Positions 11,391-21,701 of a stretch of 22,273 nt of DNA are shown in pieces. The notes below the pieces were generated by a model that ran no database searches, had not been told where the DNA came from, and worked only from the letters and a program-made list of their open reading frames with translations. Position numbers and translations under genes: made by a program. The number at the start of each line of letters is the position of its first letter. Positions within the stretch are counted from its first letter, which is position 1. The stretch spans positions 1-22,273 of the IMG/VR virus record IMGVR_UViG_3300035703_000427. One strand, given 5' to 3'. This stretch comes from a virus.

Positions 11391-11408
11391 GCCGGGTCCG
11401 GCCAATGC

Positions 11409-11437
11409 TGTATAGAGCCTAGCTAGGTATGTATCAA
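11409..11437 (-). promoter_or_regulatory. promoter with palindromic spacer
   Basis: On the minus strand TTGATA (11437-11432), a 17-bp spacer and TATACA (11414-11409) make the best sigma-70 match in the window. The spacer contains the palindrome CCTAGCTAGG (11418-11427), a likely repressor site. The segment 11422-11436, GCTAGG-TAT-GTATCA, resembles the core of the 21-bp repeats at 16743-16828. Confidence 0.65.
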
Positions 11438-16281: not shown

Positions 16282-16587
16282 ATGCGCTACGTCTGCAACT
16301 ACAACGATCACGGTCCCTATTTCAGCGCTACGCAAGGGCAATATCAAGCAGCTCGCCTCAAAGAGCTGCTGATGCACGTGCGAGTGTGCATGGAAGACGC
16401 AGATCAGGCCATTGGCGTGTTTGACGATGATTCAGAATGCATTGGCATGTGGCTTGATGAAGCAGAGCCCGTCGATGACGGGGAAGGTGGCATGGTGTTG
16501 GGCAAACCGTGCTATCAGCTCTATCGCCCAGGCGACATGAGCGCCGGATTGTGGAACATGCACCTTCGCCATTTCAACAGGCCATGA
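16282..16587 (+). CDS. hypothetical protein, 101 aa
   Basis: ATG 16282 is preferred to an upstream in-frame TTG because it follows the previous stop directly. The product reads MRYVCNYNDHGPYFSATQGQ, then AARLKELLMHVRVCMEDADQ and an acidic segment. It may be a small regulator but nothing specific is recognised. It ends ATGA-coupled to the 52-aa gene. Confidence 0.55.
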   Translation: MRYVCNYNDHGPYFSATQGQYQAARLKELLMHVRVCMEDADQAIGVFDDDSECIGMWLDEAEPVDDGEGGMVLGKPCYQLYRPGDMSAGLWNMHLRHFNRP

Positions 16588-16742
16588 TTCTCATCGATTT
16601 CTTCTCTGAAGCCGCCTGCAAGGGCACCGAACTGATTGAAGGATGGTATTTCTACGCTGATGATGATGATTCTGTCATTGGTGGACCTTTTCCTGATGAG
16701 GAAGCCGCCCTCAAGGCGGCTTTCGATGGGCATTCTTGGTGA
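16584..16742 (+). CDS. hypothetical acidic protein, 52 aa
   Basis: The start overlaps the previous stop (ATGA). The product MILIDFFSEAACKGTELIEG, then WYFYADDDDSVIGGPFPDEE and AALKAAFDGHSW, has a run of four Asp and the look of small phage or cyanobacterial proteins. It is the last gene before the repeat arrays. Confidence 0.55.
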   Translation: MILIDFFSEAACKGTELIEGWYFYADDDDSVIGGPFPDEEAALKAAFDGHSW

Positions 16743-16828
16743 GACCCGGCCAGGTGTGTATTGGACCCGGCTAGATGCGTATTTAGGAACCGGCTAGGGT
16801 CGTATCAGACCCGGCTAGAGTTGTATCA
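16743..16828. repeat. four tandem 21-23-bp repeats
   Basis: Copies start at 16743, 16764, 16787 and 16808. The consensus is GACCCGGCTAG followed by RGTYGTATCA. Twenty-one bp is two helical turns, so a protein could bind all copies on one DNA face. Directly adjoining an AT-rich block, the array looks like iterons or a partition/operator site. Confidence 0.75.
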
Positions 16829-16890
16829 TTGTTTATTCTTATTATTTTTCAGTTGTTAATTATAATTACTTTTTCAATTTGTTATTCTTA
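16829..16890. other. AT-rich segment between the two repeat arrays
   Basis: About 62 bp of very AT-rich DNA contains the palindrome TAATTATAATTA (16858-16869) and one of two copies of TTATTCTTATTATT (16833 and 16882). It could be the unwinding element of an origin. Confidence 0.5.
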
Positions 16891-17113
16891 TTATTAATTA
16901 ATTGCAATTCTCGGCAATAACAATAAAGAATTAATCACACTTTTTGGCAGTTATTAATAACAATTAATTGCACCTTGAGGCTATAAAGAATAAAGAATTA
17001 ATTGCACTTTGTCGTTGTTAACAATAAAGAATTGATTGCATCTTGCGAGTATAAAGAATAAAGAATTAATCCGCCTTTGAAAGTATAAAGAATAAAGAAT
17101 TGTGTGCCAATCC
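16891..17113. repeat. seven-copy 33-34-bp periodic repeat array
   Basis: Copies of a degenerate unit, best form TAAAGAATTAATTGCACTTT, begin at 16891, 16924, 16957, 16991, 17025, 17059 and 17093, with spacing 33, 33, 34, 34, 34 and 34. Three copies carry an extra upstream ATAAAGA, giving ATAAAGAATAAAGAAT. The strict register shows real tandem organisation. The array is AT-rich and may be an origin or centromere-like site. It is not a CRISPR, because the spacers are not unique and the repeats vary. Confidence 0.75.
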
Positions 17114-17440
17114 GGCCTGCTGTCACAGCGGCCCTTTTGTCTGTATCCGTTGCTACATTCTGGCCCTTTGTAAGGTTTCGCAATATTTGCGCCGTTTGCC
17201 CCTGGCCGTGCTAACGGCCCCGACCCTTTGCCCCCGCTTGTGCCAATCGACGGCCTGGCCTGCCGCTGGGTTGACGCGGGGGCCTGCCATGCGGTACGCG
17301 CGGGCGCGATCGTCTTGCTTTGCTTTGGCACGGACCAGCAGTCAGCGGCCCCCTACCATCGCTGGCCGCCCAAAGCCCCTAGCTAGTGGGCCACCTTTGG
17401 CTCTGGCCTAGTTGCCCTGGGCTTTGCCCCTTGTGCTTGG
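17114..17440. other. GC-rich non-coding segment
   Basis: About 330 bp without a credible gene. Composition switches abruptly here from AT-rich repeats to GC-rich DNA. Open frames exist but encode Cys/Arg/Pro-rich shadow sequences. A CTAGCTAG octamer occurs near 17378. Nothing else is supportable. Confidence 0.5.
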
Positions 17441-17469
17441 CAATATTTGGGGGCGCCCGAGAGGGTGCC
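17441..17469 (+). promoter_or_regulatory. -10 box and GNRA leader hairpin before the 54-aa gene
   Basis: CAATAT (17441-17446) precedes GGCGCCC-GAGA-GGGTGCC (17452-17469), a 7-bp stem (one G-U) with a GAGA tetraloop. The ATG lies 19 nt downstream. Confidence 0.65.
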
Positions 17470-17488
17470 GATTCCTGCAAATTCAGCC

Positions 17489-17653
17489 ATGCCCGCTCTC
17501 ACCCTGACTGCAAAGCTTGCCGCTGTGTTCGGCGGTTCTCTCCTAGCCCTTTTCACGGCCTCGCTTGCCGTAGAGGATCAACGGCACTTCATCGCTTGCC
17601 GCGCCACGGGCGCCAGTGCCGACGCTTGCCTGCTGCAGATCAGCGGCCGCTGA
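17489..17653 (+). CDS. small membrane-anchored two-cysteine protein, 54 aa
   Basis: MPALTLTAKLAAVFGGSLLA plus LFTASLA forms one N-terminal hydrophobic segment, followed by EDQRHFIACRATGASADACL and LQISGR. The Cys-x8-Cys pair and short exported tail mirror the 59-aa protein at 12190. The segment encoding ACLLQI is nearly identical to one in the neighbouring GP88-like gene. It is first in the GC-rich operon, behind the leader hairpin. Function unknown. Confidence 0.6.
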   Translation: MPALTLTAKLAAVFGGSLLALFTASLAVEDQRHFIACRATGASADACLLQISGR

Positions 17654-17696
17654 TCCTGCCCCTTTTCACACCGTCAACCACACACCACCCAAAGCC

Positions 17697-19301
17697 ATGC
17701 CCGCCACCACCGTTCCCGCCACCGCCGCCGATTATCTGGGCCACGTGAGCCAGGGCACTTGTAAGGATGCCGGCCTCAAGCGGCCCACCTTTGCAAGCGT
17801 GAGCCAGGCCGCCAAAGCCCTGGCCCTGCCCGCTTCCATCGCCACTACCTCCCACGGCTACAGCGTCAACCACGCCGCCGGCCCTGACCTTTGTCGCAAC
17901 CTGGCCGACGTGGCCGCTTGCCTGCTGCAGATCCACCACACTCAGTGGCGCGTGAGCCCTGCAGGCAAAGCCAGCGCCGCTGCCCGTTTGCGTGCCCGTG
18001 CTGCAAAGGGCAAGCCAGCCCTGGCCCCCCACGTGGCCGCCGCTTTGGGCTGCAGCCCTGCCCCTGCAGCCCCTGCCCCTGTCAGCCCTGCCGAGCGTGT
18101 GGCCGATGAGATGCTGGCCGCTTTGGCAGATCTGAGCCGCAAGTGGGAGGCTGAGCCCGCAAGCTTTGCCCCGATCGTGCCCGCTGGCCCTGCTGCCCGC
18201 AAGACGGCCCCCGCCGCTGTGCCCGCTGACGTGAAGGCGCACCTGGCCCGCTTTGGCCTGGCCGTTGACGGCCTGCTGACCGTAGGGGCCTCCAATGCCA
18301 AGCTGGCAAAGGGCAAAGCCCTGGCCTGGCCCGTCATCCTCCATCACCTGCCCGCCAAAGCCCTGGCCCAGGCCGTGGCCGGCCCCAAAGCCGGCCCAAC
18401 GGCCCCACGCTCCCGGATCGAGGGCCTGGCCGAACTGGCCAAAGCCACCAACACCTACAGCCTGGCCCTGGCCCATAATGGCTGCCCCTGGGCCTCTGCT
18501 GGCTGTGCTGCTGGCTGCCTGGCCTGGGCTGGCCATGGTGGAATGTCAACCACAGTGGCCGCTGCCCGTGCCCGCCGCACCCTGGCCATGCTTGCCGATG
18601 GCCGCACCTACGCTCGGGCCGTGCTTTGGGCCATCGCTCGAGCCTACCGGCAGGCCCAGGCCAAAGGGCTGCCCCTGGCCGTCAGACTGCGCGGCACAGA
18701 CGACAGCCCCGTCCACCTTTGGCGCTTTGACGTGAGCGCAGCAGAGGCCCAAAGCCTGGCTCGCCGTTACGGCCTGCCCGTGGCCCCTGGCCAGGGCCTG
18801 ACGCTGCCAGAGGCCCTGGCCCTGGCCCCTGCCGGTGCTGTGCACTTTTATGAGTACAGCAAAGCCCCCGCCTATGGCCCGCTGGGCCTGCAGGCCCAGG
18901 CCAGCGCTGGCTTTGACGTGACAGCCTCGCTAGCAGCAGACCGGCCAGACGGGCTCAGTCAGGCCCTGCAGGCCATGACCGCTGGGTTCCGCCTGGCCGT
19001 GCCCGCTGGCTTTGCAAAAGGCCAGGCCCTGCCCCCTGTGCTGCTGCTGCGCGTTCACCCGGAGGCCCCCGCCTGGCGGTTGCTTTGCATCGATGGCGAC
19101 ACCACCGATCACCGCTGGGCCGACCCTGCAGGGCCTCAGCCTGGGGGCTTTGATGGCGTGGCCGTGCTGCTGCGCACAAAGCGCAGCAGGGGCAAAGGGC
19201 CAGAGGCCGACGCATTCAGCCTGGCCCCTACCATCGGCGAATGGCAGCCCCTGGCCGGTGGTGGCCAGGCAGCATTCAGCACCACGCAATGGGAGGCCTG
19301 A
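17697..19301 (+). CDS. GP88-like protein, Ala-rich, 534 aa
   Basis: Start at MPATTVPATAADYLG. Residues 1-240 are Ala/Pro-rich with low complexity. Residues 245-400 resemble the phage GP88 family: TYSLALAHNGCPWASAGCAA and GCLAW (Cys263, 270, 274), a helix of RAR-type repeats, VRLRGTDDSPVHLW in place of the usual VRIHDSGDF, and VHFYEYSKA (383-390). The C-terminal part continues as mixed alpha/beta with LLLRVHPEAP and MTAGFRLAVPAG. The family's biochemical role is not known to me; the Cys cluster suggests metal binding. DNA here reaches about 80% GC locally, unlike neighbouring genes, suggesting separate ancestry. Confidence 0.6.
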   Translation: MPATTVPATAADYLGHVSQGTCKDAGLKRPTFASVSQAAKALALPASIATTSHGYSVNHAAGPDLCRNLADVAACLLQIHHTQWRVSPAGKASAAARLRARAAKGKPALAPHVAAALGCSPAPAAPAPVSPAERVADEMLAALADLSRKWEAEPASFAPIVPAGPAARKTAPAAVPADVKAHLARFGLAVDGLLTVGASNAKLAKGKALAWPVILHHLPAKALAQAVAGPKAGPTAPRSRIEGLAELAKATNTYSLALAHNGCPWASAGCAAGCLAWAGHGGMSTTVAAARARRTLAMLADGRTYARAVLWAIARAYRQAQAKGLPLAVRLRGTDDSPVHLWRFDVSAAEAQSLARRYGLPVAPGQGLTLPEALALAPAGAVHFYEYSKAPAYGPLGLQAQASAGFDVTASLAADRPDGLSQALQAMTAGFRLAVPAGFAKGQALPPVLLLRVHPEAPAWRLLCIDGDTTDHRWADPAGPQPGGFDGVAVLLRTKRSRGKGPEADAFSLAPTIGEWQPLAGGGQAAFSTTQWEA

Positions 19302-19304
19302 TCA

Positions 19305-19436
19305 ATGCTGCCCCTACAGCCCCCGGCATGGCTTGAACGCGAGGCCGAGCGGGCCGAATGGTTGGAAGCCCAGGGCCTGCCAGAGGATTGGCAGCCCGAC
19401 CCTGAAGACCTAGAACCATGGTGGGAGATTGACTGA
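19305..19436 (+). CDS. small Trp/Glu-rich protein, 43 aa
   Basis: MLPLQPPAWLEREAERAEWL, then EAQGLPEDWQPDPEDLEPWW and EID, starts 3 nt after the GP88-like stop in the same GC-rich style. It is acidic with five Trp. It is probably cotranscribed with the larger gene and ends just before a terminator. Function unknown. Confidence 0.5.
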   Translation: MLPLQPPAWLEREAERAEWLEAQGLPEDWQPDPEDLEPWWEID

Positions 19437-19453
19437 CAGCCCCTACCCTCTCC

Positions 19454-19486
19454 AGCCCCCAGGCAGCCCCTGGGGGCTTTGCTTTG
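19454..19486 (+). terminator. intrinsic terminator of the GC-rich operon
   Basis: AGCCCCCAG (19454-19462) pairs with CTGGGGGCT (19470-19478) over 7 nt, then TTGCTTTG. Confidence 0.75.
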
Positions 19487-19847
19487 CCTGCCGGCCCCTG
19501 CCATGCCTGGCCCCCGCTTTGGCCCTGCTGCTGGCCCATAGGCTGCCCGCTGACGCTGCCCCCGCTTTGCCTGCTGCTGACTGAGCTTGAGAGGCTGAGG
19601 GTATCAGCCACCACTAGAACACGTGTTCTACAGTCTGGATCACACCTTTGCCATTCCGTCAACCCCTTGCCCTATCAGGAATTCTGATCGTTCAATGCTT
19701 GCCAAACGGGCAGGGGCCGTGAGAGGATAGCGGAGCGATGGTTGACACAGCGCGGTAACGTGGGGGCTAGCGCAGAGAGGCGGCGGGCTACCCCTCCGAA
19801 AAGTGGCCCCATTTTCTATCTAGTTTTTTCCTATATGCATACCCGCA
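19487..19847. other. non-coding stretch with a 16-bp palindrome
   Basis: About 360 bp without a gene. It contains the perfect palindrome TAGAACACGTGTTCTA (19615-19630), an isolated TTGACA at 19742 lacking a matching -10, and GGGGCTAGC pairing with GCTACCCC (about 19764-19796). GC content falls from the GC-rich island towards the HNH gene. Confidence 0.5.
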
Positions 19848-20360
19848 TCACTCTTTGTCAATGGCAAGCTGCATTTTCAATTGAGCAATTCGGCGTCCCA
19901 TTTCGATGAGTTCCATTTCCGAGGCATTGTTTTTAATTGAATTGGCGCGATGGGAGACAATTGCGACATTTCCCTTCACGTAGCCCCTAGAGCTATCAAT
20001 TCTGTCTATGGATGGGCTGCAAGGGTGAGGACTTCGGGGTCCGCAGTTAACTTTTGCTTCCCAATGAAACTTTGTTCCCAAATAGGGGCAGCATTCTGGA
20101 AGAATTTCGCGTAAGTAACTCAAATCAAGATCATGGTTTACACTTGCCCGTTTTGCCCTAACTTTACTGTCTTCAATAAGTCTTCTCAGCTTCCATTCGA
20201 TCAGATCATTTTCAGCGCAAGACTGCTTATATGCTTGGCTTCGTTTCGCGTTGCAAGCACGGCAACTTGCCCGCACGCCAGACTTGACACTGCGATCAGT
20301 AGAGAATTCTGAAAGCGGTTTCGTTTCACCGCATTTAGAGCAATCCTTAGTTCCTTCCAT
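19848..20360 (-). CDS. HNH endonuclease with N-terminal zinc ribbon
   Basis: The 170-aa protein begins with CSKCGETKPLSEFS...CRACNAKRS (Cys7, 10, 33, 36), a zinc ribbon common in phage HNH proteins. The core lies at 90-145: CCPYLGTKF, SPSIDRIDSSRGYVKGNVAI and VSHRANSIKNNAS, with the Asp, Asn and Lys residues of the mobile HNH/endonuclease-VII-like group. It probably nicks DNA and spreads as a selfish gene. It is alone and opposite to its neighbours, as expected for an inserted homing endonuclease. The start codon sits in the palindrome CCTTCCATGGAAGG. Confidence 0.8.
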   Translation of the reverse strand: MEGTKDCSKCGETKPLSEFSTDRSVKSGVRASCRACNAKRSQAYKQSCAENDLIEWKLRRLIEDSKVRAKRASVNHDLDLSYLREILPECCPYLGTKFHWEAKVNCGPRSPHPCSPSIDRIDSSRGYVKGNVAIVSHRANSIKNNASEMELIEMGRRIAQLKMQLAIDKE

Positions 20361-20419
20361 GGAAGGTAATTAACTGGGCAAAGCATAGCCATGGCTTTTG
20401 AAAACATAGTGTTGCTATG
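20352..20419 (-). promoter_or_regulatory. palindromic upstream region of the HNH gene
   Basis: CCTTCCATGGAAGG (a perfect 14-bp palindrome around the start codon), AGCCATGGCT near 20388-20397, and CATAGC...GCTATG flanking arms lie within 70 bp. They could be regulatory or the footprint of insertion. Confidence 0.4.
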
Positions 20420-20429
20420 GCGAATCAAG

Positions 20430-20890
20430 GCCCCCAAGGGCCGCAGATGAGCCATATGGCGAAGCTTCGTTCAGAAAGTTAACCATCCCGCTCCTTCCAT
20501 TGTCATTTCCAGCACAAGGGCGGCCCTCAAAGGCCGCCCGTCTTGATGCTGACATTGTTTTCAACGGCTTTTTGCTTATTCCTGGTCGTTGCACGCATTT
20601 TTCCCTTGCATTTACCAAGCGTCCTGGAGCGACGCCGCTTTTAGGGCGGCGTCTCAGCGCTGGAAGGACATTTGCCAGTCCTAGAAGGCTTGTGAGGGGC
20701 TTTGGCGTCGAGAGCTTTTTGGTTGCTCTGAAGCGCTCGTTGGCCGCTTTGGGGCGGCCCCTCGCTTAGTGCTGAATCACTGGTGAGGCGTCGCTCGTCA
20801 GTGTCGCTTGTCAGAAGGCAGGCGTTGCACTATGCATCCAGCATAACGCAAGCTGAAAGGAGCCGTTTCTGTCCTTTTACTCCCTATTGA
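20430..20890. other. hairpin-rich non-coding region
   Basis: No convincing gene in about 460 bp. It holds strong stems GGGCGGCC/GGCCGCCC (20518-20539), GACGCCGC/GCGGCGTC (20631-20653) and GGCCGC/GCGGCC near 20742-20757. It also has tandem 13-bp repeats GTCGCTCGTCAGT and GTCGCTTGTCAGA (20790-20815). The stems look like terminators but lack good T-tracts; a structured RNA or decayed gene remnants are possible. Confidence 0.45.
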
Positions 20891-20892
20891 GG

Positions 20893-20898
20893 TACAGT
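20893..20898 (+). promoter_or_regulatory. -10 box of the T5orf172-like gene
   Basis: TACAGT lies 22 nt before the ATG at 20921. The in-frame GTG at 20897 overlaps this box, which argues for the later ATG start. Confidence 0.4.
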
Positions 20899-20920
20899 GC
20901 GGGGAGTTGGGCTTGTTTCC

Positions 20921-21622
20921 ATGGTCAAGCAGAGGCCTTTGCAGCGCAAAACTGACGGATGGGTGTATTTCGTGCAATGGTCGTCGATGCCGTGGATAGT
21001 CAAGATTGGCTTCACCACATCGCCACAAGACCGTTTTGCATCGTTTCTCACTTGTTCAGCGGACACGCTGGTGGTGCTGAAGATTTTTCAGGCTCCGCGT
21101 GAAATGGAGAAGGATTTGCATGATCGTTTTGATGCAGCAAGAGAGAGGAGAGAGTGGTTTCGCCTGTCTGCAGCGATCAAGAGGTATTTGCAGGAGGAAG
21201 CACCCTGCCAAACGCTTGAAGCCAAGGTGAAATTTGGCAAAGGCATGGAAGACGACGTGAAATGGGTGCCCATGAGGCAAAACACGTCTGTGCTGCTAGA
21301 GGCGATGAAACAGGAGCAGCGCATCCCAGGGTTTATCAAGAATGCAAGGCTCTATACGCTTTGGGCCATTGATGATCTTGATACGTGCGATTATTTCGTC
21401 ACATCGAATGCCATCATTCATCACGAAGCAAATCGTGACATCTACAAAGCGAAAACTATTTACAACCAGTTGATGGATTTAGAAGAGGAGAAGCTTATTG
21501 CAAAAAAGAAGGACAAAACATTTTCTGTCACAGAAGAGGGCAAATTGGAACTAGAGAATGCGGAGCTTGATCACGCAAAAGCGAAACCAAGAAAAAGTGC
21601 GAAAAGCTTAAGACTTAGTTAA
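20921..21622 (+). CDS. T5orf172/Mug113-type (GIY-YIG-like) protein with winged helix
   Basis: The 233-aa protein opens with GWVYFVQWSSMPWIVKIGFT, then DRFASFLT, LKIFQAPREMEKDLHDRFD and REWFRLSAAIKRYL (residues 13-90), the T5orf172/Mug113 domain related to GIY-YIG nucleases and found in many phages. Residues 155-215 (IYNQLMDLEEEKLIAKKKDK, then TFSVTEEGKLELE) look like a winged helix. The combination suggests a DNA-binding regulator or nuclease. The C-terminus is basic. It stands alone with its own -10 box; the next gene follows after about 80 bp. Confidence 0.7.
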   Translation: MVKQRPLQRKTDGWVYFVQWSSMPWIVKIGFTTSPQDRFASFLTCSADTLVVLKIFQAPREMEKDLHDRFDAARERREWFRLSAAIKRYLQEEAPCQTLEAKVKFGKGMEDDVKWVPMRQNTSVLLEAMKQEQRIPGFIKNARLYTLWAIDDLDTCDYFVTSNAIIHHEANRDIYKAKTIYNQLMDLEEEKLIAKKKDKTFSVTEEGKLELENAELDHAKAKPRKSAKSLRLS

Positions 21623-21701
21623 TGCTTCCGCACATTGTGTTAATGACTACTTCCCCTCCATCGTTCTCTCTCTAGCGTGAAGAGATACAGCGGAGACCAC
21701 C

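Follow-up and report, generated by a model that had tools for sequence, protein, structure and literature searches.

An exchangeable tandem-repeat cassette in S-CBS4-like Synechococcus phages, a candidate decoy for host regulators

Two tandem repeat arrays separated by AT-rich DNA in a phage genome raise the question of which protein they are meant for, and whether they serve replication, partition or another purpose. Such a locus is present in the window, i.e. the whole analysed stretch of 22,273 bases, a virus record that covers part of the genome of an S-CBS4-like Synechococcus siphophage and shares about 90% identity with Synechococcus phage S-CBS4 across most of its first 14.7 kb. A previous sequence-only reading of this DNA had described two different arrays around an AT-rich core and proposed a candidate origin or partition site. 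The following features are referred to throughout:

11395..11436, + strand: two array-1-like motifs, before an intrinsic-terminator-like hairpin and upstream of an RlpA-like gene
16509..16742, + strand: o16509, a small conserved ORF that borders the cassette upstream in relatives
16743..16826, + strand: array 1, four direct repeats GRYCCGGCTAGnnnnGTAT, directly behind the o16509 stop codon
16827..16895, no strand: AT-rich spacer, 85% A+T over 16827-16891 (65 bp)
16896..17102, + strand: array 2, six units of a 33-34-bp repeat and part of a seventh, the replaceable cassette
17117..17139, + strand: weak terminator-like hairpin with a T-rich tail, from a pattern scan, at the downstream edge of the cassette
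17616..19301, + strand: GP88-family gene (PF17338), about 70% GC

The arrays themselves are real, as the top tandem-repeat score of the region was 193 compared to at most 54 in 200 dinucleotide shuffles, and they are the only arrays with a score of at least 70 in the window. The four repeats of 21-23 bp that had been described were recovered as array 1, with cores starting at 16743, 16764, 16787 and 16808 and a spacing of 21, 23 and 21. The AT-rich segment, previously estimated at 60 bp, was confirmed at the slightly greater length given above, with the correction that two imperfect 28-bp repeats are located within this core (16828-16855 and 16877-16904). Array 2 has the consensus TAAASAATAAASAATTRATYGCAYYTTG, and its AATTRATY anchors are located at 16896, 16929, 16962, 16996, 17030 and 17064 (spacing 33, 33, 34, 34 and 34); thus the claimed register of 33-34 bp holds, while the claimed seven repeats are six full units followed by a partial one with a degenerate anchor at 17098. 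The local GC content drops to 25% at a window mean of 55%, and an island of 70% GC adjoins, in agreement with the compositional contrast noted earlier. The pattern-scan match of the downstream hairpin was not clearly above chance expectation. Sites similar to the array-1-like motifs near the RlpA-like gene were found in S-CBS4 and several relatives. No Rfam family and no tRNA was detected in the window, and a reading of the locus as an RNA element or tRNA was therefore rejected.

With regard to the flanking genes, o16509 had no family match, and the downstream gene product belongs to the GP88 family (39.7 bits against PF17338, curated Pfam cut-off 24.4). Its C-terminal domain, which carries invariant cysteines, is kept among relatives and its N-terminal part is variable; the GC content of the gene stands clearly above the window mean, and no match to the GP88 of the window was obtained among phage or plasmid records. 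GP88 was also considered as a DNA-binding initiator; its predicted fold (pLDDT 82.5) gave only weak TIM-barrel-like matches with a best Z of about 5, some of them to radical-SAM enzymes. A short ORF located before the GP88 gene (17489-17653) resembles a signal peptide or membrane peptide. S-CBS4 is the nearest isolate, and its "complete genome" record (NC_016766.1) ends at about window position 16489, inside an ORF, and starts at window position 21676. The 5.2-kb region missing from this record (window 16490-21675) holds the arrays and the GC-rich GP88 gene, and its absence is probably due to an assembly or cloning gap; the cassette is known here only from uncultured-phage sequences.

For the comparison with relatives, 33 IMG/VR loci were retrieved by a protein search with GP88. 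The gene order o16053, o16264, o16509, array, GP88, o21702 and rnr was widely conserved in these loci. Array 1 recurs in most relatives, as one cluster of 3-5 copies in most genomes examined, and 44 copies were gathered from the cassettes of the window and its relatives; a diverged form is present in L026-L028 and L031. The DNA behind array 1 varies, with periods of 34, 25, 40, 11/38, 16 or 55 bp and other units. When the window is compared with the relative G001, the two flanks show 77% and 86% identity and no alignment is obtained for positions 16829-17101. In a tree of the neighbouring rnr gene, more than one kind of array is found among the close, nearly identical phages L071, L010, L008 and L005, and the 34-bp type and the Pho-box type (see below) must each have changed at least twice to satisfy the well supported branches. 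A similar number of changes is needed with shuffled labels, so that the tree documents repeated change and not its rate. The GP88 gene is itself swapped in some relatives for a diverged GP88 or a DUF7227 gene. Six other distinct loci carry the 34-bp unit of the window at this position; the neighbouring gene is GP88, a diverged GP88 (27% identical) or DUF7227, and all contigs with at least two 34-bp units in the IMG/VR scan lie at this locus. Array 2 is thus a cassette that is replaced wholesale even between close relatives. The sequence-only reading had named absence of the array from otherwise similar, independently replicating relatives, together with a lack of skew change or replication signal, as evidence against an origin, and array 2 is indeed absent there, with unrelated arrays in its place.

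Several further observations were made on the cassettes and their surroundings. An HNH-endonuclease-like gene is inserted between o16509 and array 1 in L008, L013, L014, L033, L071, L076 and L104. The 25-bp array of L019 (1734-1987) has the conserved core CCGTAGAATATACTCTACC, and the 40-bp array of L022 (1617-1879) the conserved core GAACCGTTGTATC..TACA with GTAn8TAC in six units. The cassettes L004, L013, L014, L025, L027, L028, L031 and L034 are rich in dyads of the TATGCGCATA type and in TGATCA palindromes.

The arrays of the relatives were compared with published binding sites, namely the cyanobacterial LexA consensus AGTACWNWTGTACT (PMC3091678), the SphR Pho box CTTAACCT, which occurs in tandem with 3-bp linkers (PMC1906773), and the classical Fur box GATAATGATAATCATTATC. 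The cyanobacterial Zur consensus has nearly the same core as the latter (PMC9337993), so that Fur and Zur boxes are not distinguishable. Boxes were counted in 23 cassettes (11 kb, including that of the window) and, for comparison, in 494 kb from elsewhere in seven genomes; the cassettes had been delimited manually once inspected, unlike the published motifs, which were not set in this way. The cassettes contained 19 LexA sites, 13 Fur/Zur sites and 38 tandem Pho boxes, compared to 1, 1 and 0 elsewhere, although these counts are not independent trials because the cassettes were delimited manually and some of them are related. After permutation of the motif letters, no more than 5, 1 and 12 matches were obtained, compared to 33 for LexA (scored as a plain dyad in this control), 13 for Fur and 38 for Pho. 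De novo, AGTACn4GTACT was the commonest dyad, being present in 10 of 19 cassettes, and TATGCn8GCATA was present in 7 of 19; the shuffles gave 2-3. The boxes of the relatives hence match the published LexA, Fur/Zur and Pho consensuses far above background, and it is well supported by these sequence comparisons that the cassette consists of host-regulator box arrays in many relatives. An assignment of the 40-bp array of L022 to NtcA is suggestive only, as the six-base box is kept in six units together with conserved flanks.

The viral-collection scans covered 2.9 million contigs (IMG/VR). Three tandem Pho boxes were found in 30 stretches, and all 11 contigs with at least six tandem Pho-box pairs carry them at this locus. 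The double-LexA pattern was found in at least 22 loci with the marker genes of this locus, among the matches listed, and also in many loci without these marker genes; this locus is thus not the only one with LexA pairs.

Taken with the exchange of arrays, these boxes suggest that the locus may be an exchangeable tandem-site cassette for a predicted host DNA-binding regulator which acts by titration, a reading that is favoured tentatively and somewhat short of an even chance. The cassettes of the relatives would offer arrays for LexA, Fur/Zur or SphR (Pho), and possibly NtcA. As the phage genome multiplies, the many strong sites would titrate the host global regulator, and the SOS, iron, phosphate or nitrogen response of the host would be altered. 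We infer that host proteins bind the arrays, that a host factor exists for the 34-bp unit, and that titration prevails over local control. Titration would account for the number of boxes, the mixture of repressors and activators, and the swapping. Titrated repressors and activators would have opposite effects, and no single benefit to the phage follows from it.

A close rival to titration is a stress- or nutrient-responsive control region, in which bound host regulators would activate, or release, transcription of the GP88/DUF7227 gene or operon behind the array; it is regarded as possible, on the doubtful side. The position of the boxes points to it and against a decoy: they lie upstream of GP88/DUF7227 and within 2.5 kb in 34 of the 37 loci having such a gene, as a control region would, and the Pho boxes share the orientation of the downstream genes in 15 of 17 loci. 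This applies to each of the 14 S-CBS4-like loci, which are partly related, and a pure decoy would not require such an orientation. Moreover, host PhoB and NtcA sites are known at single cyanophage promoters, and binding of PhoB to some cyanophage Pho boxes was demonstrated by gel shift (PMC10976474, PMC3037559). However, up to 27 box pairs were counted per locus, which far exceeds promoter usage and speaks for a decoy, the boxes are located hundreds of bases from the gene, no uniform -10 element was seen behind the last box, and repressor (LexA, Fur) and activator (Pho) arrays interchange before the same gene.

The initially proposed origin has to be weighed against the same comparison. Lambda ori comprises four iterons beside AT-rich DNA, and the window likewise has tandem direct repeats beside an AT-rich segment, as iteron-type theta origins do. 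According to this explanation, array 1 would bind a phage initiator, the AT-rich DNA would melt, and array 2 would be a variable auxiliary part. Array 1 is indeed conserved in most relatives. The GC-skew inflection that had been suggested as a check was sought in five long relatives, of which G002 is the sole circular genome, and the outcome was mixed: for G001, G002 and G006 the minimum of the detrended cumulative GC skew was placed 2.4-3.6 kb downstream of the array, and for G003 and G005 its distance from the array was 10-12 kb. Since the main genes to either side share one strand, the skew switch is not a simple gene-direction effect. On the other hand, the wholesale exchange of array 2 among close relatives departs from iteron origins, no cognate initiator was found among the ORFs considered, and many of the replacement arrays match regulator boxes. 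Several relatives lack a strongly AT-rich cassette, and array-1-like motifs also occur near the RlpA gene. An origin or replication control at the locus is therefore considered unlikely, and if an origin is located nearby, array 1 is a more plausible part of it than array 2. For array 2, a reading other than iterons with an AT-rich core is preferable, and the 34-bp repeats would more likely serve to attract or sequester a host regulator than to act as a replication origin.

Repeat arrays serve packaging or partition roles in other phages and plasmids, and the sequence of the S-CBS4 record stops 254 bp upstream of array 1, which might fit a pac/cos site. However, the break inside an ORF and the resumption 5.2 kb further on look like an assembly gap, and the S-CBS4 terminase gene is several kilobases away on the other strand. 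The partition site of the sequence-only reading found no counterpart either, since no ParA/ParM/TubZ-type family was detected among the flanking ORFs of this fragment in scans with Pfam and PHROGs. LexA, Fur or Pho boxes are not accounted for by either role, and a packaging or partition site is thus considered very improbable.

Returning to titration as the preferred function, the identity of the 34-bp unit of the window was addressed. In the literature search the unit had no match to published boxes, and its motif strings retrieved unrelated papers only. A search of a genome collection with a single strict pattern, which is weak evidence, gave four matches, none of them cyanobacterial, and did not yield a host copy of the unit. 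An IHF site was dismissed, as judged by eye, because only a minority of the units, those with a G at the respective position, bear a resemblance to YAAn4TTGATW. In an iteron origin served by GP88 or the T5orf172-wHTH protein, the array would be expected to vary with the respective allele. Array type follows neither of the two, and both proteins were rejected as cognate binders: L005 has a GP88 with 89% identity and L009 an identical T5orf172-wHTH protein, yet each carries another array, and 34-bp arrays are also present next to a GP88 of 27% identity or next to DUF7227. A search for a Rep, ParA/ParB or iteron-binding protein whose allele changes with the array type gave no candidate. Based on the position of the locus, its exchangeability and the neighbouring arrays in L069, where LexA and Fur boxes adjoin a 34-bp array, and not on the motif, we infer that the 34-bp unit of the window is one allele of the cassette series.

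Phage DNA with boxes for host regulators is known from cyanophage promoters, namely the Pho boxes of S-PM2d and P-SSM2 and the NtcA promoters of T4-like cyanophages. These sites belong to individual promoters, whereas the cassette consists of dense tandem arrays at a fixed hypervariable locus, with boxes for several regulators across relatives. Titration has been proposed for the natural chromosomal DnaA boxes of E. coli (PMC12371093), which concern one cellular protein and its own chromosome and not a phage locus with exchangeable arrays and different putative regulators. Repeated boxes are also reported to titrate a regulator in synthetic decoy arrays in E. coli (PMC7826281); those arrays are engineered and the cassette is natural. 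No earlier description of such a repeat cassette was found in a literature search with thin coverage of subscription papers. With more reserve than for the locus alone, it is proposed that this cyanophage family may possess a dedicated and rapidly exchanged decoy locus, which would titrate whichever host global regulator suits the niche (SOS, iron, phosphate, nitrogen or the factor for the 34-bp unit) and would thus reprogram the host by DNA only, free of protein. If so, phages would compete for host regulators by DNA alone and could switch from one target to another by exchange of the cassette; the 34-bp, 25-bp and 40-bp arrays would then hint at host regulators with still undescribed boxes, and the host stress responses of importance in a given setting could be read from the arrays of environmental phages.

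Among cyanopodovirus isolates with DUF7227, no upstream box arrays were found in P-SSP7, P-GSP1 and S-SRP01, and P-SSP2 has a single LexA-like dyad. In the cultured Synechococcus phage DSL-LC03 (OR003938.1), which belongs to another family, several DnaA-box-like sites of the forms TTTTCCACA and TGTGGAAAA, part of them in tandem, are located upstream of DUF7227 (L314, 1738-2196).
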